This document shows positions 45,379 to 59,633 of a DNA stretch of 64,000 nt, in pieces. Source of the DNA: Cylindrospermum stagnale PCC 7417 (GTDB taxonomy: Bacteria; Cyanobacteriota; Cyanobacteriia; Cyanobacteriales; Nostocaceae). The notes beneath the pieces were generated by a model, which was given only the letters and a program-made list of their open reading frames with translations, did no database searches and was not told the DNA's origin. The translations under genes were made by a program, and so were the position numbers. Within the stretch, counting starts at the first letter, position 1. The number at the start of each line of letters is the position of its first letter. The stretch covers positions 471,001-535,000 of the forward strand of contig NC_019757.1 of assembly GCF_000317535.1 (NCBI RefSeq). Direction: 5' to 3'.

Positions 45379-48300
45379 CTAGAGGTTTACGAAATCAGCA
45401 GCGGTGAACGTCGTGGTATTAATACCAGTCAGCGTTGCCAAAATTTCATTCGTGGAAGTCACCAGGATATTGCTACCAGAGAAACTCAGTTGCCCAAAGC
45501 TCAAACCACTATACAGTCCGATTAAATCTTGACCGTCAGAGAAATCAGTAATAGTATCAGTACCTTCCCCAGCAGCAAAGGCAAATGTATCGTTACCATT
45601 GCCACCAGTGAGGGTATCGCTGCCAATACCGCCATAGAGGAGATCGCTGCCAGCACCCCCGTAGAGGGTATCGCTGCCAGCACCCCCGTAGAGGGTATCG
45701 TTGCCATTACCACCGTTAAGGGTATCGTTACCCGCGCCCCCATCCATCAGTCCATCGCCATATAAGACATCGTTACCATTACCGCCGTAGAGACTGTCGT
45801 CACCTGCGCCGCCGTAGATGGTATCGTTGCCATTACCGCCGTCGATGATGTCGTTACCGCTAGTACCAAACAGGTTATCAGCAAAATTAGTGCCCAAAAT
45901 GTTCAGACCAACAGCCACAGTCACCGTAGCAGTATCAGTCAGGCTACCATCACTGAGGGTGTAATTAAAGCTGGCATTGCCAAAGAACAGAAGATTTGGG
46001 GTAAAGGAAACGAAATCATCTGCGGTGTTGTTGGCTGTGCCGTTATTATTCAGGACGGCAGTACCGTGAGTAGCACCGCTGACACCAGTAATGCTCAACG
46101 AGGTGCTATCTATATCGGTATCATTTGCTAGTAGGCTACTAACTGCGATGTTGACAGAAGTACCAAAGAATGTGGAAGCACTGTCATTAACAGCAACAGG
46201 CGCATCGTTAACGGGGGTGACAGAGAAACTGCGGGTTTGTCCAGCTAGGGTGGCTGTGCCATCGGTCACATCGTAAGTCAGATTAACTGCACCATTAAAG
46301 TCGGCAGTTGGGGTGAAGGTATAAGTCCCATTCAAGTTGTCCACCAATGCACCGTTAGTGGCAGTTAAGTTGGTAACTGAGAGGATATCACCCGCATCCA
46401 CATCACTGAAACCTGTTAATAAGTCAGCCGCAGTAATATTGATGGCTGTATCTTCTGGTGTGTTGCTTAAGGTTGCAGTGGGTGAACCTGTTGGCGCATC
46501 GTTAACACCGTTGATAGTCAGGTTAACCGTTGCTGTGCTAGTGCCACCATTACCATTATCGCTGACTGTGTAAGTGAAACTATCGCTGGCAGTAGCACCC
46601 ACACCCAAAGACTCAAATTGACCGTTGGGATTATAGTCGAAAGTGCCATTGGCGTTGAGAGTAAGTAGCGCACCAGAAGCTAGAGTAATTGGTGTACTTA
46701 CTGTGACGCTGTTGCCATTAACTTTAATCACACTCAGGCTGTCGCCATTGGCATCGGTGTCATTTACCAAGACGTTGATGTTGACGAGGGTATTTTCATC
46801 AGTGGTGGCAGTATCGTTGGCGGCAACAGGGGGGATGAAAGGTGATTCATAAGCGCCAATATCCACAGTATCGCCAATGGTGCGAGTGATACCCCGTTGG
46901 TCTGTGGTGACACCAGAGGGGATGAGGGTATTGTCTCCCGCGTTGATGGCAGCCGAACCGGAAACTATAGCGTGAGTGAAAGTGGCACCGCCGTTGTCGG
47001 CGAGAGAGGCGATGACTTGGTTAATATTGGTAATGCCAGCCGAGGCAAAGGTGATATCGCTACCAGTGCCGATGCTGCCAGATGCGCCAGTCAAGCTACC
47101 GATGAGGTTGTTGCCATTGCCTGTGACTGCACCCGCAATATCCGGGGCTTCGTTACCAGAATCAAAGTTGCCGGCGATGATGGTGTTTTGGACGGTGACG
47201 GTGCCTTGAGAGCTGATACCCCCACCATCTCCAAAACCATCGTTATCGAAATCAGCAGTGTTATTGGTAATAGTAGTGTTGATCAGGGTTGCTGTACCCG
47301 ATATACTGATACCACCGCCATCTCCAAATGACCTATTGCCAGAGATAGTAGTGTTGAGCAGGGTTGCTGTACCCGATATACTGATACCACCGTTAGATCC
47401 TCCAGTATTGTCAGAGACAATGCTGTTAGTTAGGCTAAGAGTACTAGTACCATTATTTTCGATGCCGCCTGTAACAGCCCCACTATTGTTAGAGACGGTG
47501 CTTCCCGTGACGTTGAAAAGACCTTCGTTGAAAATACCGCCTGTCACAAACCCATCATTGTTAGAGACAGTACTGTTAGTTAGGCTAAAAGTACCATTAT
47601 TGTAGATGCCGCCTACAAGAAACCCAATATTGTTAGAAACAGTGCTGTTAATTAGGCTGAGGGAGCCTTTGTTCTCAATAGCGCCCACATCTCCTCCATT
47701 ATTGCTATTGTTAGAGATGATGTCGTCGGATAGTGTCAGGTTTTCTACGTTAAAGATACCAGCACCGACAGTATTATTACTTCCAGCCGTAATCGTTAGT
47801 CCATTAATTGCTACCGCAATTTGATTGCTACTGCCATCATTGACATTAAAGACAGTAGAGGCATTGTTACCACTAATAATCAGGTTACTTGCCCCTAATC
47901 CATTGATGGTCAAGGCATCAGTAATAACTAATTCCCCAGAAGTTAAGGTAATGGTGTCGGGGGTGGCATCAGCGAACACACTACTCGCAAAGGTAATTGT
48001 ATCTGCACCTGCAAAGGCATTGGCGTTGAGAATCGCTTGCCGCAAGGAACCTTCACCAGAATCGTTGGTGTTGGTGACGACGGTATCGTTGGCAGCGATA
48101 GTAACCGTTGCGGTATTGTTGGTACCATCTACCGTGTAACCTGTGCCAGTATCTAAGTTGAGGGTGAGGGTTTCGTCTGCTTCAGCAGCGATATCATTAA
48201 TAGCAGATAAGTCAACGTCAACAAAACTTTGTCCAGCAGCAATGGTGACGGTTAAGGTATTACCAGAAACCGTGACGCTACCACCACTGAGGCTATAGTC

Positions 48301-50457
48301 AGCAGTTGCAGCTGTGCTGCCGCCATCAAGGGTGAGGTTAATGGTTAAATCCCCTGTGGTGTCGGTGCGAGTGATGCGATAGACACCGTTACTGCCGCCT
48401 TCATTGGCTGTGGCAGTTTGTGCGGTGATGCTGACAGTAGGGGTAGAAACGGGTTGATTCTCGAAGAACACGGTATTGCCGTAACGTTCCCCCACAAAAG
48501 CATCGAGGTCGCCATCGCCATCGATATCGGCAAAGGTGGGCGCGGCATAGAACCCCACATCAGTCAGACCGAAGGGGTTGGTAGTGGGGGCGGCGAAGGC
48601 TGGATTGCTGGCACTGCCCGTGTTGCGGTAGAACAACGTATTGCCGTCCCGATTGCCCACAAAAGCATCGAGGTCGCCATCGCCATCCATATCGGCTAAG
48701 GTGGGCTTGGCGGCATTCCCCACATCAGTCAGACCGAAGTCGTTGGTAGTGGGGGCGGCGAAGACTGGATTGCTGGCGCTGCCCGTGTTGCGGTAGAACA
48801 ACGTATTGCCGCTAAGATTGCCCACAAAAGCATCGAGGTCGCTATCGCCATCGATATCGGCTAAGGTGGGCTTGGCATATAACCCCACATCAGTCAGACC
48901 GAAGTCGTTGGTAGTGGGGGCGGCGAAGGCTGGATTGCTGGCACTGCCCGTGTTGCGGTAGAACAACGTATCGCCGGCATTATTCCCCACAAAAGCATCG
49001 AGGTCGCCATCGGCATCGATATCGGCAAAGGTGGGCGCGGCATAATTCCCCACATCAGTCAGACCGAAGGGGTTGGTAGTGGGGGCGGCGAAGACTGGAT
49101 TGCTGGCACTGCCCGTGTTGCGGTAGAACAACGTATTGCCGTTAACATTGCCCACAAAAGCATCGAGGTCGCCATCGGCATCGATATCGGCAAAGGTGGG
49201 CGTGGCAGAAAACCCCACATCAGTCAGACCGAAGGGGTTGGTAATTGGCGTGATAAAATTCGGGTCAGTGCCTAAAATCTCGTCAGCGCCGTTAATTGTA
49301 ATGGTGACAGTAGCATCGCTAGTCCCGCCTTGACCATCACTGACGGTATAAGTGAAGCTATCACTAGCGGTTTGACCCGCAGCCAAGGATTCAAATTGAG
49401 CGTTGGGGTTGTAACTGTATGTGCCGTCACTGTTGAGCGTTAATAAAGCACCGGAAGCTAAGGTAATCTGATTGCCGACATCAGCAGCAACGCCATTTAC
49501 AGCCGCTACTGTCAAGATATCGCCCGCATCGGGGTCGGTGTCATTGGTTAAGACGTTACCAGTGACAGAGGTATCTTCGCCGATGGTAGCAGTGTCGTTA
49601 TTGGCAATGGGAGGATTGTTGACTGGGGTATTAGCGGATGTATTCTCGAAGAACAGGGTATCGCCATCAAGATTACCGACAAAAGCATCTAAGTCGCCAT
49701 CGCCATCGATATCGGCAAAGGTGGGTGCAGCAAGATTACCCACATTAGTCAGTCCGAAGGGGTTGGTGGCTTCCAGGGTGAAGGTGGGAACAGTTGCACT
49801 TCCGGTGTTGCGGTAGAACAGGGTATTGCCGTCAAAATTACCCACAAAAGCATCCAAGTCTCCATCAGCATCGATATCGGCAAAGGTGGGTTTCGCAGAA
49901 AACCCTACATCCGTCAGTCCGAAGGGATTGGTGGCTTCCACGGTGAAGCTGGGAGCAGCCGAAGTTCCAGTGTTGCGGTAGAACACGGTATTGCCGTAAC
50001 CATTCCCCACAAAAGCATCCAAGTCCCCATCGCCATCGATATCGGCTAAGGTGGGTACAGCAACATACACCACATTTGTCAGTCCGAAGGGGTTGGTGGC
50101 TTCCAGCGTGAAGGCGGGAGCCGTGGCAGTTCCACTGTTGCGGTAGAACAGGGTATTGCCATCAACATTACCCACAAAAGCATCCAAGTCCCCATCGCCA
50201 TCGATATCGGCAAAGGTGGGTGTAGCATACGACCCCACATTCGTCAGTCCAAAGGGATTGGTGGCTTCCAGCGTGAAGGCGGGAGCCGTGGCAGTTCCAC
50301 TGTTGCGGTAGAACAGGGTATTGCCCTGCTGATTACCCACAAAAGCATCCAAGTCGCCATCGCCATCGATATCGGCAAAGGTGGGCACGGCAGAAAAAAC
50401 CACATTCGCTAGTCCGAAGGGGTTGGTAATTGGGGCAATAAAATTCGGTTCAGTCAT
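45379..50457 (-). CDS. Giant FG-GAP/VCBS/Calx-beta/RTX surface protein
   Basis: 1692 residues from the ATG at 50457; a TTG seven codons earlier overlaps the previous gene and is less likely. Order of parts: five FG-GAP units of 55 residues (FADIDGDGDLDAFVGN, NTLFYRNSGTA), a VCBS/cadherin-like domain, five more FG-GAP units, a Calx-beta domain, a parallel beta-helix starting NTNDSGEGSLRQAILNANA, two to three VCBS/cadherin-like domains (about 1240-1540), and eight or more RTX nonapeptides (GGNGNDTLYGGAGSD). There is no N-terminal signal, and the RTX block plus C-terminal domain point to type I secretion with calcium-dependent folding. Likely roles are adhesion, matrix or sheath formation. It is one base after the TIGR03032-GNAT gene and must be co-transcribed with it. 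Confidence 0.88.
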   Translation of the reverse strand: MTEPNFIAPITNPFGLANVVFSAVPTFADIDGDGDLDAFVGNQQGNTLFYRNSGTATAPAFTLEATNPFGLTNVGSYATPTFADIDGDGDLDAFVGNVDGNTLFYRNSGTATAPAFTLEATNPFGLTNVVYVAVPTLADIDGDGDLDAFVGNGYGNTVFYRNTGTSAAPSFTVEATNPFGLTDVGFSAKPTFADIDADGDLDAFVGNFDGNTLFYRNTGSATVPTFTLEATNPFGLTNVGNLAAPTFADIDGDGDLDAFVGNLDGDTLFFENTSANTPVNNPPIANNDTATIGEDTSVTGNVLTNDTDPDAGDILTVAAVNGVAADVGNQITLASGALLTLNSDGTYSYNPNAQFESLAAGQTASDSFTYTVSDGQGGTSDATVTITINGADEILGTDPNFITPITNPFGLTDVGFSATPTFADIDADGDLDAFVGNVNGNTLFYRNTGSASNPVFAAPTTNPFGLTDVGNYAAPTFADIDADGDLDAFVGNNAGDTLFYRNTGSASNPAFAAPTTNDFGLTDVGLYAKPTLADIDGDSDLDAFVGNLSGNTLFYRNTGSASNPVFAAPTTNDFGLTDVGNAAKPTLADMDGDGDLDAFVGNRDGNTLFYRNTGSASNPAFAAPTTNPFGLTDVGFYAAPTFADIDGDGDLDAFVGERYGNTVFFENQPVSTPTVSITAQTATANEGGSNGVYRITRTDTTGDLTINLTLDGGSTAATADYSLSGGSVTVSGNTLTVTIAAGQSFVDVDLSAINDIAAEADETLTLNLDTGTGYTVDGTNNTATVTIAANDTVVTNTNDSGEGSLRQAILNANAFAGADTITFASSVFADATPDTITLTSGELVITDALTINGLGASNLIISGNNASTVFNVNDGSSNQIAVAINGLTITAGSNNTVGAGIFNVENLTLSDDIISNNSNNGGDVGAIENKGSLSLINSTVSNNIGFLVGGIYNNGTFSLTNSTVSNNDGFVTGGIFNEGLFNVTGSTVSNNSGAVTGGIENNGTSTLSLTNSIVSDNTGGSNGGISISGTATLLNTTISGNRSFGDGGGISISGTATLINTTITNNTADFDNDGFGDGGGISSQGTVTVQNTIIAGNFDSGNEAPDIAGAVTGNGNNLIGSLTGASGSIGTGSDITFASAGITNINQVIASLADNGGATFTHAIVSGSAAINAGDNTLIPSGVTTDQRGITRTIGDTVDIGAYESPFIPPVAANDTATTDENTLVNINVLVNDTDANGDSLSVIKVNGNSVTVSTPITLASGALLTLNANGTFDYNPNGQFESLGVGATASDSFTYTVSDNGNGGTSTATVNLTINGVNDAPTGSPTATLSNTPEDTAINITAADLLTGFSDVDAGDILSVTNLTATNGALVDNLNGTYTFTPTADFNGAVNLTYDVTDGTATLAGQTRSFSVTPVNDAPVAVNDSASTFFGTSVNIAVSSLLANDTDIDSTSLSITGVSGATHGTAVLNNNGTANNTADDFVSFTPNLLFFGNASFNYTLSDGSLTDTATVTVAVGLNILGTNFADNLFGTSGNDIIDGGNGNDTIYGGAGDDSLYGGNGNDVLYGDGLMDGGAGNDTLNGGNGNDTLYGGAGSDTLYGGAGSDLLYGGIGSDTLTGGNGNDTFAFAAGEGTDTITDFSDGQDLIGLYSGLSFGQLSFSGSNILVTSTNEILATLTGINTTTFTAADFVNL
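48450..49250 (-). repeat. Array of five 165-base units (second FG-GAP block)
   Basis: The landmark CACATCAGTCAGACCGAAG recurs at 48556, 48721, 48886, 49051 and 49216, exactly 165 bases apart. Units are almost identical in DNA, with differences mostly in one variable stretch of each unit (for example YAAPT, AAKPT, YAKPT). Recent amplification or conversion is likely. Confidence 0.92.
49640..50450 (-). repeat. Array of five 165-base units (first FG-GAP block)
   Basis: The same phase point recurs at 49741, 49906, 50071, 50236 and 50401, again every 165 bases. Units within this block resemble each other more than those of the other block (TATAPAFTLEAT here, ASNPAFAAPTT there), so each block has been homogenised separately. 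Confidence 0.9.
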
Positions 50458-50458
50458 G

Positions 50459-52558
50459 TTAGTTTTCTCTTGATTCAAGTGTAGGGTTAATCAACTTACT
50501 CGTTTGTCGCACTTCCCCTACCCCAGTTAAATAGGGTGTCAGGTGTCGTTCGACAAACTGCAACAAACGCGGGTAACGGTAAGAAACCGAACCCGTGAGG
50601 TAGGGAACACCACTGTTAACTTGACGACGAATCGCTGCTGCTAACAGCGAAACCCCTCGCCCCCGCTTCTCAAATGCTTGTGCAATTGAAATAGTGGTGT
50701 AGCGAATTGTGTCAGGTGCTACCCGATGGGTTAACACCCAACCAATTACCTCCCCCCGATAGCGCAATCCCAAGCTATTTAGGGGTTCTAAGCGGTGTGC
50801 CTCGACATTAGGCGGCAGGGATAAACCGGCATCTAACCAAGGAAACACCTCAAAGGCTGGAGGTAGGGGATACTTATTTAACCAAGGTGCTTGGGCAATT
50901 TTTTCTGTAGCGGTTTTGCCTAGCACCAAGTTAATTTGGGGTGGTTGCCAATGTAGCTTTTGCAGTAGCGGTTCTAAAGCGACATTGGTAAGTGTACTGG
51001 TTGAATAGCTGAGGATGATTTCAACACATCCCTGTTGGGCTAATTCTCGTTCTAAATAGGCGAGTAACCTTGTGCCAATTCCTTGACAACGGTATTCGGG
51101 TAATACGAATAGGGAGATGATTTCGGCTTGTTGGGGGTTTAAACGTTCGCTGATGGCAAAGCCGACTATTGCACCGTCTAGGGAAGCAGAAAGCCCAGTT
51201 AATTCGCCTTGGGGCGGTTGAGTTTGCCAGCGTTTTTGCAGGCTGGGATAGGTGAGGTGATTGTAGTCGAGGGCGTTGCTGCTGTTGAGGTGATACACCC
51301 GTTGGTAACGGATTTGATCCCCCCTTGAAAAGGCTGCCTCACTACTAGTCTTGGGATTACCCCTCCCTAACTCTCCCCTTGTCAAGGGGAGGGAACTAGA
51401 TTGTCCGATTTCCCCCCTTTCTAAGGGGGTAATTTGTTGTGTGGGTAAACCAGCGACGGGGGGGGTTGCACCTAAACTGGGACGTTTGGCGGTGGGTTTG
51501 GTGGTGACAATGCCGCCACTGTTGGGAAATGTGACTAGGCGCTGAATTTCGTCTGACTGTAAACCAATTGCTTGGGGTTGTAGCACCCCAGGTAGAACTA
51601 CAACATCAAATAGTTCTTCAATTACTCCCTGAAAATATAGCCAGTGCAGGGCTGTGCCTGTCTGCAAGTCAATTACCATTAAGCCACACTGGGGGCGATT
51701 TCCTTGGGAATTTAAGCGGTTTTCTAGGGTTAATCCGGTAAAACTCTGGGAACGTAGTTGAGATAGTCCCACAAAGGCGAAGTTTTGCCAAAAGGCTAAT
51801 CCACGCACAAATCCAGGGCAGAAGGTGATGGGATGGAATTGATGATCTTGGATGTAGCCTAATTCCCCTGTGCCGGAATTGAGTAACCATAATTTCCCCT
51901 GATACCAACGGGGAGAATGGGGCATGGATAAGCCTGTGGCGATGATTTCGTTTTGGGCAACGTCGATGACGACTCCGCCATCAATGCGATGATTCCGCCA
52001 CCCGGCGGCTGTATCTGTGGTACTACAGGCAGTGACATAAGCGGGTTTGCCCTCTACCATTGCTAGCCCATTCAGATGACAACGATCTTCAGCGACGAGT
52101 TTGGAGATGAAGGGCGGTTGCCAAATGGGGACAAAGTTGTAGTCTGGGCTGAGGGTGGCTAAACAACTAAAGTCGGTATTGACAAAAATAACTTTTTCAG
52201 AATCGTCTAAGACTACTTCATGGGCGTTGACATCGCCTGTGGTGTAAGCGGTGCGGGGGACATAAAGGCGATCGCATTCCTTGTACTTTTCGCCATTATC
52301 CAAGAAGTTATCAAAATGCCAGAGTTGGTAGCGGGTAGTCATGTAGAGGCTTTTGCCATTCAGATATAGCCCCATTGGTTTGTCGAATAGCCTTTCGTTG
52401 AGCTTCAGCTTTCCGTTCGCTTGGCTACCAACGAAAAAAAGGCGGTTGGTTTGGTAGGTTGTGAATGCCAAGCTGAGATTTTGCTCGCATAGCCAAGCGC
52501 CGAATTGCTCAGAAGCGTTGATTTCTAGTCCACTAGCGGCAGAAACAGGGGTTTGCAT
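50459..52558 (-). CDS. TIGR03032 family protein fused to GNAT acetyltransferase domain
   Basis: 699 residues. The N-terminal 350 residues match the TIGR03032 family: a beta-propeller-like domain with RLFDKPMGLYLNG, DVNAHEVVLDD, NTDFSCLATLSPDYNFVP, DRCHLNGLAM and MPHSPRWYQGKLWLLNSGTG. Residues about 350-430 are a low-complexity linker that contains an inserted dispersed repeat (ITPLERGEIGQSSSL, LTRGELGRG). The C-terminal part has a GNAT acetyltransferase core, AEIISLFVLPEYRCQGIGTRLLAYLE, binding acetyl-CoA, and a second weaker copy of that fold (YTTISIAQAFEKRGRGVSLL). The stop is one base before the start of the giant RTX protein. It may modify or help assemble that protein; this is inferred from the operon only. 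Confidence 0.82.
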   Translation of the reverse strand: MQTPVSAASGLEINASEQFGAWLCEQNLSLAFTTYQTNRLFFVGSQANGKLKLNERLFDKPMGLYLNGKSLYMTTRYQLWHFDNFLDNGEKYKECDRLYVPRTAYTTGDVNAHEVVLDDSEKVIFVNTDFSCLATLSPDYNFVPIWQPPFISKLVAEDRCHLNGLAMVEGKPAYVTACSTTDTAAGWRNHRIDGGVVIDVAQNEIIATGLSMPHSPRWYQGKLWLLNSGTGELGYIQDHQFHPITFCPGFVRGLAFWQNFAFVGLSQLRSQSFTGLTLENRLNSQGNRPQCGLMVIDLQTGTALHWLYFQGVIEELFDVVVLPGVLQPQAIGLQSDEIQRLVTFPNSGGIVTTKPTAKRPSLGATPPVAGLPTQQITPLERGEIGQSSSLPLTRGELGRGNPKTSSEAAFSRGDQIRYQRVYHLNSSNALDYNHLTYPSLQKRWQTQPPQGELTGLSASLDGAIVGFAISERLNPQQAEIISLFVLPEYRCQGIGTRLLAYLERELAQQGCVEIILSYSTSTLTNVALEPLLQKLHWQPPQINLVLGKTATEKIAQAPWLNKYPLPPAFEVFPWLDAGLSLPPNVEAHRLEPLNSLGLRYRGEVIGWVLTHRVAPDTIRYTTISIAQAFEKRGRGVSLLAAAIRRQVNSGVPYLTGSVSYRYPRLLQFVERHLTPYLTGVGEVRQTSKLINPTLESREN
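51366..51430. repeat. Palindromic dispersed repeat inserted in frame in the TIGR03032-GNAT gene
   Basis: CTCCCCTTG (51373-51381), T, CAAGGGGAG (51383-51391) is a perfect palindrome, and CCCCCTTTCTAAGGGGG follows at about 51413-51429. Both arms resemble the repeat copies near 11.5 kb. The reading frame stays open through the insert. Confidence 0.8.
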
Positions 52559-54640: not shown

Positions 54641-54952
54641 TTACCGAGGATAAAACAGTAAAAAACAACTACCATTCAATAAAGCAGTGATTACTGCACC
54701 AATAATCACACCTTTCATTATTCCTGGTCTTTGTTGTCTTTTTAACCTGAGGCAAACTGGAATTACATATAAAAGTTGCCAGAATAAAAAACCATAACCC
54801 CCAACAATCCAAACCATAAAAAAAGAGTAATTACCGTATATCTGATTGACAATTAAGCCTAGAGCAAATATTGCTGCTATTGCTATAAGATGCATACCCA
54901 ATAACAACAATATGCCTAAGAAAATTTCGCGAGTCTCATTTCTTTCCGACAT
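54641..54952 (-). CDS. Small membrane protein in the radical SAM operon
   Basis: 103 residues with three hydrophobic segments (about 11-33, 44-64 and 80-98; for example IFLGILLLLGMHLIAIAAIF and GVIIGAVITALLNGSCFLLF). The loop between the second and third helix is basic (CLRLKRQQRPGIMKG). No family recognised. It starts 36 bases after the radical SAM stop on the same strand and should be co-transcribed with it and the Lgt-like gene. A partner or quality-control role in a lipid-modifying complex is a guess from context. Confidence 0.65.
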   Translation of the reverse strand: MSERNETREIFLGILLLLGMHLIAIAAIFALGLIVNQIYGNYSFFMVWIVGGYGFLFWQLLYVIPVCLRLKRQQRPGIMKGVIIGAVITALLNGSCFLLFYPR

Positions 54953-54988
54953 TAATTCACCTCAATATTTAATGTTGATAACTCACAT

Positions 54989-56407
54989 TTAATCGGGACG
55001 ATTATTAACTAAGTGATACCCAGCGCTACCCTCGCGGTAAAACATATTGAAGGTATCAAAGGGAATAATCCTCCCGTCTGGGTGGACAATATGAATACAG
55101 GAGCGCTTCACCGAACGAACATCAAAGTTATAAGGGTCGAGAAACTGGACAATCATCACCCGAAATACATTCTCATAGGTAATACCTTCAGGTACAGCCA
55201 ACAAGGGTAAACAACACAAAAGCTGCTTTAACGAAGTTGCAGCGGATTTTGGTGAATGACTGGTAGAAAATAATTCAAAAATTTGTTTTTTCAGTTCTTC
55301 ATTTTGCTCATAAAGTACGCTGTTTGGCAACATCTTCACAAACACATCGGGATTGATTAAGCCAGTTAGAGGGATAACTTGACCATTAATTTTTAGCGCA
55401 TAAGCCATTGCTAAACAATCAGGATGGCAGGGAACTGGGAGAATATCTTCAGGTTTAAAATAGGGACTTTGTTGGAGAATTGAGCGGCGAACTTCTGTTA
55501 AAGTGTACCTATCTCGCTTTTCTTCAAATCCCTCTAACCTTCCCGCTGCTTGGATTGGTTGAAAAGTCACACCCCGAATACATTTCTGTTGTAAAGCATA
55601 TTCAATAATTTTGCCGATTTCTTGGTCATTCAAACCTTTTTTTAGGGTGACAACTAAAGTAGTAGAAATGTTATATTCGTTGAGATGGGCAATAGCTTTT
55701 TCCCGCACACCCCGCAAATCTGCGCCGCGTAATTCCTGTAGTGCTTCGGCTTCAAAGCTGTCAAATTGCAGATATACCTCAATTCCGGGCATATATTGGC
55801 TGAGGCGATCGCAAAATGATTTATCTTTAGCAATCCTCAAACCATTGGTATTAATCATTAAATGCTTAATTGGCCGGCTTTTAGCAATATCCAGAATTTG
55901 AAAAAACTCTGGGTGCATTGTTGGTTCACCGCCACTGATTTGCACTATCTGTGGTTCTCCCTCATTCGCCACCACCGCATCAATCATCATGGTGATGTGT
56001 TCTAAACTGCGATGACGACGCGTTTGTTGCGATATATCAGAAACTTCTTCAGCACCAGAATCAGCATAGCAAATCGGACAGGAAAGATTACATTTATCTG
56101 TCACCTCAACAACAGTTATACAGCTATGCTGTTCATGATCAGGGCAAAGTCCGCAATCATAAGGACAGCCATATTTAATTGGGGTATTAAACTTCAGAGG
56201 CATATCCCCTGGCTTGATAAATTCCAGAGATTTTTGATAATACTCAATATCATCAGCAATCAAAATTTCTTCTCTCCCGTGGGTGGGACAGTGCTTAACA
56301 AGGTAAACACAATCATCTCTAAAAATTATTTTTGCTTCCACCTTAACGAGACATTTAGAGCAAACGCTATTCGTCAAAGCATGAAAAAGGTAGTTGCGAG
56401 TAGGCAT
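54989..56407 (-). CDS. Radical SAM protein, tetraether-synthase-like
   Basis: 472 residues. The N terminus is Cys-rich (CSKCLVKVEAKI and HCPTHGREE), followed by CPYDCGLCPDHEQHSC at about residue 82, and then the radical SAM cluster motif CNLSCPICYADSG (CxxxCxxC) at about 106. The SAM-binding GGEPTMHPEF and QFDSFEAEAL follow. More cysteines near the C-terminal half (PCHPDC, CCLP) could bind a second cluster. This layout resembles the archaeal Tes/MJ0619 group, which joins lipid chains by carbon-carbon bonds. The upstream gene, 5 bases away, is an Lgt-like lipid enzyme, which supports a lipid substrate. Reaction here is inferred. The start is the ATG at 56407. Confidence 0.82.
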   Translation of the reverse strand: MPTRNYLFHALTNSVCSKCLVKVEAKIIFRDDCVYLVKHCPTHGREEILIADDIEYYQKSLEFIKPGDMPLKFNTPIKYGCPYDCGLCPDHEQHSCITVVEVTDKCNLSCPICYADSGAEEVSDISQQTRRHRSLEHITMMIDAVVANEGEPQIVQISGGEPTMHPEFFQILDIAKSRPIKHLMINTNGLRIAKDKSFCDRLSQYMPGIEVYLQFDSFEAEALQELRGADLRGVREKAIAHLNEYNISTTLVVTLKKGLNDQEIGKIIEYALQQKCIRGVTFQPIQAAGRLEGFEEKRDRYTLTEVRRSILQQSPYFKPEDILPVPCHPDCLAMAYALKINGQVIPLTGLINPDVFVKMLPNSVLYEQNEELKKQIFELFSTSHSPKSAATSLKQLLCCLPLLAVPEGITYENVFRVMIVQFLDPYNFDVRSVKRSCIHIVHPDGRIIPFDTFNMFYREGSAGYHLVNNRPD

Positions 56408-56412
56408 GGTAA

Positions 56413-57162
56413 CTAATAAACTTTTTTTATTTGGAATATTTTGGTAATACTACGATGATAATATAAAATAGCTAATAAAGCAGCAAATTGAATCGCGCTT
56501 ATTCCTAAAAATGGGTGAAAATCAGGCTTAAGAAAATCTATCAGGAATCGAAAGCTTAAATATAAAACTAAATAAAATTTAAATAAATCACCATTTTCAT
56601 AGCGATAGCGACGACGAAATTGTAAAAACACAATTAGACATATGAGAAACATAATTTCATATAATTGTGTAGGATGGCGACTAATCCCATCGCCAAAATC
56701 GACACCCCAAGGCAATGTAGTGGCAACTCCATAAGTGCGATCGCTTAACCCCGTCAGAAAGCAACCAATCCGGCCCACCGCTGTACCCACAATCAACGGA
56801 TAGACAAACGCATCACCAGTAGACTGACGAACGCCAATGATTTTTTTGGTGATTTCCACACCAATCAAACCACCCAAAAGTGCCCCAACTACAGTTTTCC
56901 CTTGCAGGAATATGAATAAAAATTCTTGGGGATTTTGCCAAATTAAATCGAGATGTTGCAGCCCCACCAATACCTTAGCACCAATTAAAGCGCCCACCAT
57001 ACCGCCAACCATCACAGAACTGCGTTGACTGGGTGCAATTAAATCTTTTTTACCAACATTACGCAATAATAAACGCAAGGCAACGGTATAAGCCAAAGAC
57101 TCAAATAAAATATGCGGATGAATCTGTAAAGATCCCAACCAAAAATAAACGGGAAAATTCAC
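56413..57162 (-). CDS. Prolipoprotein diacylglyceryl transferase-like membrane protein
   Basis: 249 residues with about seven hydrophobic helices. The Lgt core is recognisable: GTAVGRIGCFLTGLSDRTYG, TTLPWGVDFGDG and RHPTQLYEIMFL, which match GRIGNF, the PWA/G stretch and RHPxQLYE of Lgt. It is shorter than typical Lgt (260-290 residues) and lacks some loops. Lgt moves diacylglyceryl from phosphatidylglycerol to lipoprotein Cys. Because it sits in an operon with a tetraether-synthase-like radical SAM protein, this paralogue may act on another lipid substrate; a second, housekeeping lgt elsewhere in the genome would support that. Start MNFPVYFWLG at 57162; 114 bases separate it from the next gene upstream. 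Confidence 0.82.
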   Translation of the reverse strand: MNFPVYFWLGSLQIHPHILFESLAYTVALRLLLRNVGKKDLIAPSQRSSVMVGGMVGALIGAKVLVGLQHLDLIWQNPQEFLFIFLQGKTVVGALLGGLIGVEITKKIIGVRQSTGDAFVYPLIVGTAVGRIGCFLTGLSDRTYGVATTLPWGVDFGDGISRHPTQLYEIMFLICLIVFLQFRRRYRYENGDLFKFYLVLYLSFRFLIDFLKPDFHPFLGISAIQFAALLAILYYHRSITKIFQIKKVY

Positions 57163-57276: not shown

Positions 57277-58074
57277 TCACTCCACTTCCTCGCAGTGGAT
57301 TAACAAAGTTTCCATCGCCTCAGCCAAAGAAATCAACTCTGTCCAAGAAGAACCACTAACTAAACTTTGGGCGTGCGCTAATCGGTTTCGCAAATGTTCC
57401 GCCGACTTAAGGAAACGTTCACCAAACCGCTTTGACTTCAGTCCTAATTGCTGGAAAAGTTCAGGTTGATTTAAAACTAAATCTCGCTTATCACAAAATT
57501 GTAAATAATCTAATAAATCAGTGGCTTCATTTCTTTCTTGACTCTCTCGCCATAACTTTTGAGCAGCTTCTAAACGTTCCGGTTTCAGGACTTGTTGCCA
57601 AGAATCTTGGGGATAATAAATTCGTACCAGTCGCAACAGATTCATTTCTAACAACGTCACCAAGCCAAAAAGCAGCATTCTCACTGGTGCTTTTTGCAAA
57701 TCACCACAGGTAATAATTCCTGTCACCTGATTACAATCTAACACAAACAATCGTGGCGTTTGTTGCAAGATGGGTAACAACTTAATTAGTGGGGTAGAAA
57801 TGGCGACGAGTTCTTTAGTATGGAACACCCGTTGATAGTCGCCACAATTGCCAGAGTTGCCTTGCATCAAAGTAGCGCGTTCCACATAACCGCTGATACT
57901 ATCTCCCGTCTCTACGCCAACAACATCAAAATCTTGTAGCTGCATCCAATGCAGCACATCTGTCACCTGTGCGTCAGCTGACACAGCTTTTAGGGGTTCC
58001 GCCACATATTCAATAGTGATATTGTTCTCAAATAAACTCCGCAAGTCTTGAGAACGGGATTTTAGCTGTTTCAT
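57277..58074 (-). CDS. CBS-pair protein with C-terminal HEPN-like helical domain
   Basis: 265 residues from the ATG at 58074; an in-frame TTG at 58140 is less likely. Residues 20-130 form a CBS pair (VTDVLHWMQLQDFDVVGVE and RLFVLDCNQVTGIITCGDL), which usually binds adenine nucleotides. The C-terminal 130 residues are helical and end with LRNRLAHAQSLV near residue 230. RNRLAH fits the RX4-6H motif of HEPN ribonucleases and related nucleic-acid proteins. The combination suggests a nucleotide-sensing regulator or an RNA-acting protein, but the motif is short and could be chance. It is on the same strand as the Lgt-like gene, 114 bases upstream of it, and could be read with the operon. Confidence 0.6.
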   Translation of the reverse strand: MKQLKSRSQDLRSLFENNITIEYVAEPLKAVSADAQVTDVLHWMQLQDFDVVGVETGDSISGYVERATLMQGNSGNCGDYQRVFHTKELVAISTPLIKLLPILQQTPRLFVLDCNQVTGIITCGDLQKAPVRMLLFGLVTLLEMNLLRLVRIYYPQDSWQQVLKPERLEAAQKLWRESQERNEATDLLDYLQFCDKRDLVLNQPELFQQLGLKSKRFGERFLKSAEHLRNRLAHAQSLVSGSSWTELISLAEAMETLLIHCEEVE

Positions 58075-58208
58075 CTGCCTATAGATATAACATATCAGCA
58101 GAATTAGTATTTCATAGAAGCCCGCTTTGTAACTGTGCAAGCTTTGTACTTGTAAAAGAAAATTAATACTTGATCAATTAAACATCGCAGTGAAAATTAA
58201 ATATACAT

Positions 58209-58359: not shown

Positions 58360-58722
58360 TTAAGCAGGCATCATTTGCATAGATCTACAAGATTCTGCAC
58401 ATTTGCGGCAGGCGGCAGCGCACTCCATCATTTTGGCGTCATCACTCATCATTTCGCAGGCCATTGCACAACGTTCGCACATTTCTGCACAAAGCATACA
58501 AGTGCGTCCCATGAACTCAGAACCGCCCATCATCATGCTCATGCACATCATGCACATTTCAGAGCAATCGCGCATCATGCTCATCATGCTCATGTCCATA
58601 TACCTACCGCCTTTGCTCATGCAGTAAGTCATGGTTTCCATGCACATCTTTTGACACTCCATGCAAGCATTCATGCAAGTTTGCATTTCGGTGGTCATGG
58701 TTTCAGTCATCATCATCATCAT
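58360..58722 (-). CDS. Copper-storage-like four-helix protein, very Met/Cys rich
   Basis: 120 residues from the first ATG of a run of five; AGAGG lies 8 bases before it. A longer frame to 58791 has no good ribosome site. The protein has 17 Cys and 37 Met. Cys pairs are spaced CxxC or CxxxC along helices, for example CMNACMECQKMC, CAEMCERCAMAC and CAAACRKCAESC. This is the pattern of the DUF326/Csp family, four-helix bundles that fill with Cu(I) through Cys. Methionine content is exceptional even for this family. Without a signal peptide it should be cytosolic. It stands alone, 1 kb from the next gene. Function in copper storage or detoxification is inferred from the family. Confidence 0.85.
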   Translation of the reverse strand: MMMMMTETMTTEMQTCMNACMECQKMCMETMTYCMSKGGRYMDMSMMSMMRDCSEMCMMCMSMMMGGSEFMGRTCMLCAEMCERCAMACEMMSDDAKMMECAAACRKCAESCRSMQMMPA

Positions 58723-59633
58723 AGGAATTACCTCTTGATTTTCTGATGTGTAGATGGTGCCCTTTGCAGGACTACTTATAACAGTAATCATATCTTTTTA
58801 AGGAGTCAATGGCATTTTTTTTGCGGATATTATAAGCCAACAATTCCGATAGAATTACCGGGAATTGAGAACAATTACACATAATTAAGTGCTATTTTTC
58901 TAGAAATTATTGCCAATTAAGGGCTAGAATCTCCCCTAGGAAGGTGGGGATTTCTCCCACTCGTAAGTTTTGAAATTAAAGACTAAAACCCAGGCAGATA
59001 TTTGGTGAAAAACAATGTTATGCTTTGCTGACAAACGTCTAATAAATAATATTTATGAATTTATATTAAGACATCATTTGTTAAGTTATATCAAATTGCT
59101 CAACAAAATAAATTGATCTGTCATCTCTAACGATGCGTAGACGCCATAGGCTCGTTGATGGCTTTTGATTATATGCTGATTTTTGGGGATAATTCCGGCT
59201 TTTGGAGAGATTATCGGTTTAGTTAACCCCAAACTAAAGTTTTGAGATAAGTTATCCGTCTAGCACCCAAATTTGCCTGTTTGCTAAACAAATATCAAAC
59301 AGGTTTGTTGCAGAAACAGTCTTTCCTGCGTTTTGTGTCTTAGTTAGTCAACCCTTCAGAAAATCAAATAACCTTCTATCATGGTAGTTAGTAGTAGAAC
59401 TTGACCTTTGTTCCATCCAGTCTTTGATGGAATAGCTCAGGTTTATGCACATTGATGCCACAAGCTTAACTTGCTGAACTACACCACTAACAGCAAGGTA
59501 AAGAGCATCATGTTAACAAAAGTGTTTGATGCTTTGCTTTTTGCCTTACAAAGAATATCGGGTAAGCTACGACCTGAGTTCCTGCCGGCAGAATGTGGAA
59601 GCTTTGACTGAATAACCTAGTTGGAGAATGATC

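Follow-up and report, generated by a model that had tools for sequence, protein, structure and literature searches.

A 64,000-nucleotide stretch of the Cylindrospermum stagnale PCC 7417 genome (contig NC_019757.1, positions 471,001 to 535,000; called the window here, and the source of all coordinates) raises the question of what an Lgt-like enzyme, a radical SAM enzyme resembling the tetraether synthase Tes and a small membrane protein do together. The minus-strand open reading frames (ORFs) confirm the arrangement described in a first-pass annotation of this DNA: the Lgt-like gene (56413-57162 (-), 249 aa, GTG start) is followed after 5 bases by the radical SAM gene (54989-56407 (-), 472 aa), and after a further 36 bases by the small protein gene (54641-54952 (-), 103 aa). 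Computation establishes the conservation of this trio, the separateness of its families, the folds of its enzymes, a cysteine in the small protein and the association of that cysteine with the enzymes. The third gene, which the first-pass annotation underrated, encodes a membrane protein with this cysteine at the end of a helix. The trio and the cysteine pattern together suggest an undescribed modification of a membrane-buried protein in bacteria, for which the small protein is the candidate substrate.

In Pfam, the Lgt-like protein matches LGT (PF01790, 106 bits), and the radical SAM protein matches Radical_SAM (PF04055, 79.8 bits) together with an N-terminal HMPTM zinc ribbon. The genome (7.6 Mb, 4 contigs) contains a second, ordinary lgt gene elsewhere, which scores 279.8 bits versus 105.6 bits for the window copy. 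The gene in the window is therefore a paralogue, and the case that the first-pass annotation had held against its own proposal, namely that this might be the only lgt of the genome and simply the housekeeping enzyme, does not apply.

The distribution in cyanobacteria is patchy and sparse. The radical SAM protein occurs in 11 of 386 cyanobacterial genomes, counting one match of 30% identity (G050), and among the matches listed the nearest named record with the gene is Cylindrospermum sp. NIES-4074 (98%). Whether the genes are conserved beyond cyanobacteria, a question left by the first-pass annotation, can be answered positively. A scan of the GTDB contig set found at least 501 radical SAM relatives, and the best 80 of these loci, which we kept, span at least nine phyla according to their record titles (partly those of metagenome-assembled genomes): Cyanobacteria/Melainabacteria, Bacillota, Acidobacteria, Planctomycetes, Bacteroidota, Proteobacteria, Methylacidiphilales (Verrucomicrobiota), Myxococcota and Elusimicrobia. 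Actinomycetota are added by plasmid loci, which were obtained in a search with 96 matching records, the listed ones mostly being weak, incomplete matches to the radical SAM protein. Plasmids of Mycobacterium branderi (L021) and M. avium (pS2b, typed as mobilizable; L116) carry a divergent trio made up of an Lgt-like protein, two proteins with a C-terminal cysteine and a radical SAM protein; both small proteins of each plasmid end in (I/V/Y/L)CTGLNPxxY and a few further residues. A Nonomuraea replicon encodes one C-terminal-cysteine protein, inside a 368-aa ORF. No relative was found in the viral contigs searched.

Of 93 loci, 74 have the Lgt-like gene on the same strand no more than 300 bp upstream of the radical SAM gene, and 85 have it within 3 kb. 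These counts come from a six-frame search with profile hidden Markov models, which we prefer because simple ORF calling misses some Lgt-like and small genes in GC-rich loci. In a cruder first count, the Lgt-like gene was not seen at 12 of 87 loci; when nine of those 12 genomes and two controls were searched whole, a match was present in all 11 (the weakest best matches being 159.5 bits for L065 and 173.3 bits for L067, and the rest at least 259). Across 14 cyanobacterial genomes, an Lgt of the ordinary type is present in all (203-285 bits), and the divergent Lgt is present in 9 of the 11 with the radical SAM gene versus none of the three without it. Distances between radical SAM proteins also correlate with those between Lgt-like proteins over 36 loci (r = 0.82, 0 of 2000 permutations), a correlation to which shared descent contributes. 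The window locus, L022 and L109 are closely related, loci within one phylum are not independent and several loci come from metagenome-assembled genomes; the recurrence of the trio across phyla is far beyond chance.

The small protein is 103 residues long, as first annotated, and the three hydrophobic helices ascribed to it appear by hydropathy only, as computed for close homologues. It has no Pfam family above cut-off, and a Pfam search of seven small proteins was equally negative. Its cysteine, C96 (codon 54665-54667 (-), in the motif LLNGSC), stands at the end of a helix, is present in 20 of 20 sequences of an alignment of cyanobacteria and Bacillota, and is a candidate modification site. 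A helix-end cysteine occurs in 73 of 79 operonic same-strand small ORFs with at least two helices, versus 6 of 40 ORFs of this kind from other parts of those loci (Fisher test, 1.4e-17). This count excludes four of 91 loci that lack an intact radical SAM ORF (L049, L051, L054, L057), the sister loci L019 and L020, and the short loci L006-L017, most of which were substituted by longer stretches (L102-L109). Under a looser rule, 72 of 87 loci have at least one ORF with a helix-end cysteine within 800 bases, compared with 23 of 338 control genes; 23 of the 87 loci have two or more. Eight of the 15 loci that fail this rule have a small protein by eye (L036, L050, L052, L053, L055, L061, L064, L071).

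Charge counts place the cysteine on the outer side of the membrane in 77 of 101 helices and on the inner side in 15, with nine ties. Residue -2 is mostly Gly or Ala (58 of 101), and residue -1 is mixed, being I, L, T, V or Y in at least 56 of 101. The architecture around the cysteine varies. The cysteine-bearing helix is C-terminal in most loci; in acidobacteria such as L061, L063, L079 and L086 the cysteine is at the end of the first transmembrane helix (SLGLCG); three cyanobacteria have a single-helix, lipoprotein-like small protein (ASEAC, ATQAC); and some Paenibacillus proteins have one C-terminal helix (LLTICG) after a Cys-rich N-terminus, complete in L046.

Homologues in genomes with and without the radical SAM gene offer a natural comparison. 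We searched 386 genomes of cyanobacteria and 398 of bacilli with a profile built from the small proteins of cyanobacteria and Bacillota, and 395 genomes with a Bacteroidota profile; the radical SAM profile was then run on the matched genomes (cyanobacterial carriers came from the 386-genome survey, and G394 from the GTDB contig scan). In radical SAM-positive genomes, the cysteine is present in 9 of 9 copies from six cyanobacteria, 17 of 17 copies from bacilli (three of which, L200, L201 and L204, reach it after a one-residue insertion) and 7 of 7 from Bacteroidota. The nine cyanobacterial copies include two away from the operon, one broken. In radical SAM-negative genomes, the cysteine is present in none of three copies from two cyanobacteria and none of three from three bacilli. 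In four of these orphans the aligned position is occupied by Ala (three times) or Val (once), and the two in G038 have no cysteine past the end of the alignment. No orphan copies were found among the 395 genomes searched with the Bacteroidota profile. The association of cysteine and enzyme in cyanobacteria and bacilli is significant by copies (Fisher test, 1.1e-6) and with the orphans collapsed to three lineages (3.8e-4). Some matches were set aside as lying inside long unrelated ORFs or as too weak and partial (G381, G616, G634, G1071, G1252), as were the bacilli matches G623 (L207, 24 bits, interrupted by a stop) and G938 (L208, 25 bits), neither of which has the cysteine at that place or a radical SAM gene of this family in its genome; including G623 gives 0 of 7 orphans with the cysteine (p = 2.3e-7). 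Since enzyme-positive genomes keep the cysteine and orphans do not, the helix-end cysteine goes with the enzymes.

The target cysteine of Lgt lies at the outer end of an in-to-out helix, and a canonical lipoprotein has an N-terminal signal helix, a lipobox with A, G or S at position -1 and a cysteine that becomes residue 1. The small proteins resemble substrates of the Lgt-Lsp-Lnt maturation pathway in that their cysteine is likewise at the outer end of an in-to-out helix. They differ in that the helix is usually C-terminal or internal, that position -1 is often I, L, T, V or Y, and that Gly or Ala is most often at -2; no lsp or lnt gene was found among the recurrent neighbours (clusters in four or more loci). 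The window protein itself does not have the form of a canonical lipoprotein, its cysteine being residue 96 of 103, although the Ser at -1 would fit a lipobox.

The Lgt-like protein has the Lgt fold (5azb), and the Lgt signatures that the first-pass annotation had pointed out (GRIGCF, PWGV, RHPTQLYE) are all found in this member of PF01790. Lgt moves a diacylglyceryl group from phosphatidylglycerol onto the lipobox cysteine (PMC4728403, PMC13251419), and Y26, H103, R143, N146, G154 and R239 are described as essential residues of the E. coli enzyme (PMC13251419). Common to housekeeping Lgt and the window family are the fold and the equivalents of R143, G154, Y235 and R239, which are kept in 50 of 50 aligned sequences, whereas Y26, H103 and N146 are replaced in the window paralogue, which exists beside a full ordinary Lgt. 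In the GRIGC signature (residues 130-134, 56761-56775 (-)), R131 corresponds to E. coli R143 and C134 replaces N146; the R and the C are present in all 50 aligned sequences, and in 77 of 77 in an earlier set. MSMEG_5408 is described as a Y26H/N146C Lgt homologue of presumed low activity (PMC13251419).

The radical SAM protein matches Tes over its whole length in Foldseek, with the Tes fold extending over 428 residues and scoring far above peptide maturases. (The fold lists for both enzymes were drawn from Foldseek's own matches, so families missing from them are uninformative.) Its likeness to Tes/GDGT-MAS (MJ0619, 7tol/7tom) includes three sites, each conserved in 57 of 57 family rows. The rubredoxin-like metal site (C16, C19, C40, H43; 56279-56362 (-)) has the spacing C16-x2-C19-x20-C40-x2-H43, which is that of Tes C9X2C12X20C33X2H36. 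The N-terminal auxiliary cluster (56135-56167 (-)) comprises C81, C85 and C88, equivalent to Tes C73, C77 and C80, and probably H91; the Tes paper names a conserved histidine for this cluster (PMC9433317), which, placed by conservation, is probably Tes H83 and H91 in the window. The radical SAM CxxxCxxC motif consists of C106, C110 and C113 (56069-56092 (-)).

The first-pass annotation had seen the cysteine clusters as arranged as in archaeal Tes, which is correct for these three sites but not for the C-terminal auxiliary cluster, which is without the cysteines conserved in Tes. Tes C455 is replaced by S or T and Tes C470 by D or E in 57 of 57 rows; of the other Tes positions in this region, C338 is kept in 26 rows, Met439 in 42 (Val in the window) and Tyr459 in none (Ile in 55 of 57). 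All five are kept in each of the 27 acidobacterial rows above the Tes cut-off. (Met439 is named as a Tes cluster ligand in the paper; C338, C455 and C470 were assigned here by conservation.) Four cysteines present in 57 of 57 rows, namely the C398-C399 pair (55211-55216 (-)), C327 (55427-55429 (-)) and C437 (55097-55099 (-)), are candidate ligands of a rebuilt C-terminal cluster.

The family is also separate from Tes by profile and by tree. Ten proteins were scanned against NCBIfam: that of the window, six family members and three sister or divergent ones. With the Tes profile NF045702 the window protein scores 277.1 bits and the others 137-324, below the cut-off of 450. The best NCBIfam match is the TrsS profile NF045646, yet all ten are under its cut-off of 490 (316.7 bits for the window protein, 189-353 for the nine others); TrsS is listed as a selenoprotein in PMC13188914. 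Proteins above the Tes cut-off, which occur in 27 of 199 acidobacterial genomes, form a different clade together with MJ0619. The tree was built by a 'quick' method, and its long branches (L015, L017, L019, L020 and the actinobacterial rows) are unsure in placement. Mss, a bacterial membrane-spanning lipid synthase, is said to share the Tes architecture (PMC13274423), and its likeness to the window protein is that shared architecture, by description only. As a separate observation, the 27 acidobacterial proteins above the Tes cut-off (L129-L155) are candidate makers of bacterial membrane-spanning lipids. A further acidobacterial group (L156-L158) matches the Tes profile at 348-349 bits, below cut-off, has longer open frames and falls on the Tes side of the tree.

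How could these parts work together? We read the small protein as the substrate because its cysteine sits where Lgt targets sit and because that cysteine goes with the enzymes. From this pattern, the helix-end cysteine is probably the modified site, and we give about an even chance to a reading of the operon as a self-contained system for protein lipidation, with the small protein as substrate. In this scheme, the Lgt paralogue, its transfer site kept (the equivalents of R143, Y235, R239 and G154) and three other essential positions remade, would lipidate the cysteine at the outer face, most likely with a diacylglyceryl group or a relative of it; the assignment of that step to the paralogue could fall either way. 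The cysteine-bearing helix would stay uncleaved, since the cysteine lies in a permanent transmembrane helix that mostly lacks a canonical lipobox and is mostly not an N-terminal signal peptide. The Tes-fold enzyme, with its third metal site rebuilt, would work on the lipid from the cytosolic side, before or after transfer, and its reaction might be a cross-linking of tails or a C-S or C-C modification. Tes accommodates lipid tails in a long hydrophobic pocket (PMC9433317); the radical SAM enzyme, as its relative, would most simply act on a lipid that is to be attached or already attached, although action on lipid is a tentative and somewhat doubtful assignment. In the boldest form of the scheme, the two enzymes would build a lipid anchor, possibly membrane-spanning or C-C cross-linked, at the cysteine of a transmembrane helix that is not cleaved. 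The small protein would then be stapled to the bilayer by covalent bonds, and bacteria would have a third type of protein lipidation. We consider this full form rather unlikely.

Several observations weigh against a lipidation system of this kind. Positions essential in E. coli Lgt are replaced throughout the paralogue family (Y26 by H in 49 of 50 sequences, H103 by V, M, I or A in 50 of 50, and N146 by C in 50 of 50), and the paralogues may thus be unable to carry out S-diacylglyceryl transfer at all. The cytosolic radical SAM enzyme and the outer-face cysteine are on opposite sides of the membrane, and 15 of the 101 cysteine-bearing helices are predicted to run out-to-in, with nine tied. G004 has the radical SAM and small protein genes and lacks the divergent Lgt, which is also missing from G050, the genome with the 30% radical SAM relative. 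Seven of 87 loci have no nearby candidate small protein even by eye (L023, L039, L065-L067, L092, L100), though L092 has a candidate 2 kb downstream, and one of two tandem copies in L082 (2976-3179) has Phe in place of Cys (LGIFGA), its neighbour having the Cys. The helix-end cysteine rule was drawn up after the first sequences had been seen, the orphan comparison coming later. The orphans themselves are few: those of bacilli are weak matches (27-32 bits), the three of which look alike, and both G038 alignments stop before the cysteine column, in a genome that is 73% complete, which makes the absence of the gene uncertain.

Among other explanations, the first-pass annotation had suggested that the operon builds or attaches an unusual membrane lipid. 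That interpretation is partly supported by our results; the version in which the two enzymes make a free lipid with cross-linked or C-C joined chains, the small protein being a chaperone or subunit, we regard as improbable. The folds of Tes and Lgt favour it, as do the reading of Tes crystal density as two bacterial phospholipids (PMC9433317) and the proposal that bacterial Tes homologues, as a group, are makers of branched glycerol dialkyl glycerol tetraethers (PMC8941075). However, it leaves unexplained why homologues in enzyme-less genomes lack just the cysteine, and why there are tandem copies; moreover, the loss of Tes C455 and C470, the change of Tyr459 to Ile and the placement of proteins above the Tes cut-off in another clade all speak against it. 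Similarly improbable is a system like those of ribosomally synthesized and post-translationally modified peptides, in which the small transmembrane peptide would be what the radical SAM enzyme modifies, for instance at the cysteine or close to it, and the Lgt paralogue would serve as a further enzyme for tailoring or anchoring. Among the recurrent neighbours (clusters in four or more loci), no gene for an exporter or a peptidase keeps a fixed position: ABC-type ATPases (12 loci) are 1.6-8 kb away, and an M28-like peptidase (eight Bacteroidota loci, labelled by eye) is on the opposite strand or more than 3 kb distant. The whole-length resemblance to a lipid enzyme and the outer location of the cysteine by charge counts also argue against it. 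Finally, a permanent partner whose cysteine serves the enzymes as a redox, metal or thiol-carrier residue would also explain why the cysteine goes with them, but is very unlikely given the extra copies away from the operon (G129, G185) and an architecture that varies freely around a constant helix-end cysteine, which fits a target better than a subunit.

The surroundings of the trio are not conserved. No neighbour family beyond it occurs in more than 12 loci, and the largest groups are at varying distances or on the opposite strand, so a larger conserved biosynthetic island was rejected; the clustering was coarse, took in clusters from four loci upwards, and can overlook proteins that are short and divergent. 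A tie to polyunsaturated fatty acid (PUFA) synthase was dropped, being seen at one locus only: on the Persicobacter psychrovividus plasmid pPP1 (L018, 7265-17010), the trio is about 2.2 kb from a PfaA-like PUFA synthase ORF with several acyl-carrier repeats (labelled by eye). Sister radical SAM proteins on a Mycolicibacterium plasmid (L019, 7971-10339) and a haloarchaeal plasmid (L020, 5971-8134) adjoin a methyltransferase gene, not an Lgt-like one. We discounted two weak matches of the radical SAM protein in the C. stagnale genome itself (L004, L005; E about 1e-3), taking them for ordinary members of the radical SAM superfamily. Elsewhere in the window are a 287-aa protein (57277-58140 (-)) that matches a CBS-domain anti-phage family (28.3 bits, cut-off 260) and HEPN_Swt1 below threshold, a Met/Cys-rich 143-aa protein (58360-58791 (-)) with a sub-threshold match to the copper storage protein Csp1 (26.2 bits, cut-off 100), and a 1699-aa protein (45379-50478 (-)) of FG-GAP-like, cadherin-like and RTX-like repeats, as judged by eye.

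The folds of the parts are already known, and bacterial Tes homologues, taken broadly, have been published (PMC8941075, PMC9433317), including in bacteria not known for biphytanyl chains (PMC9433317). No paper on this gene pair was found in literature searches, subscription papers being mostly beyond their reach. Nor did the papers found describe the combination of Lgt paralogue, radical SAM enzyme and membrane-cysteine partner or its spread over at least nine phyla; its chemistry is a proposal. The operon joins two puzzles, bacterial Tes homologues outside known lipid producers, without a proven reaction, and a divergent copy of Lgt, and supplies a candidate substrate with one testable cysteine; culturable hosts among the matches listed include Bacillus, Paenibacillus and Flavobacterium strains. 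If true, the proposal would add a new entry to the lipid modifications of membrane proteins and another to the radical chemistry of lipids, and would caution against taking every metagenomic Tes homologue as a maker of membrane-spanning lipids.

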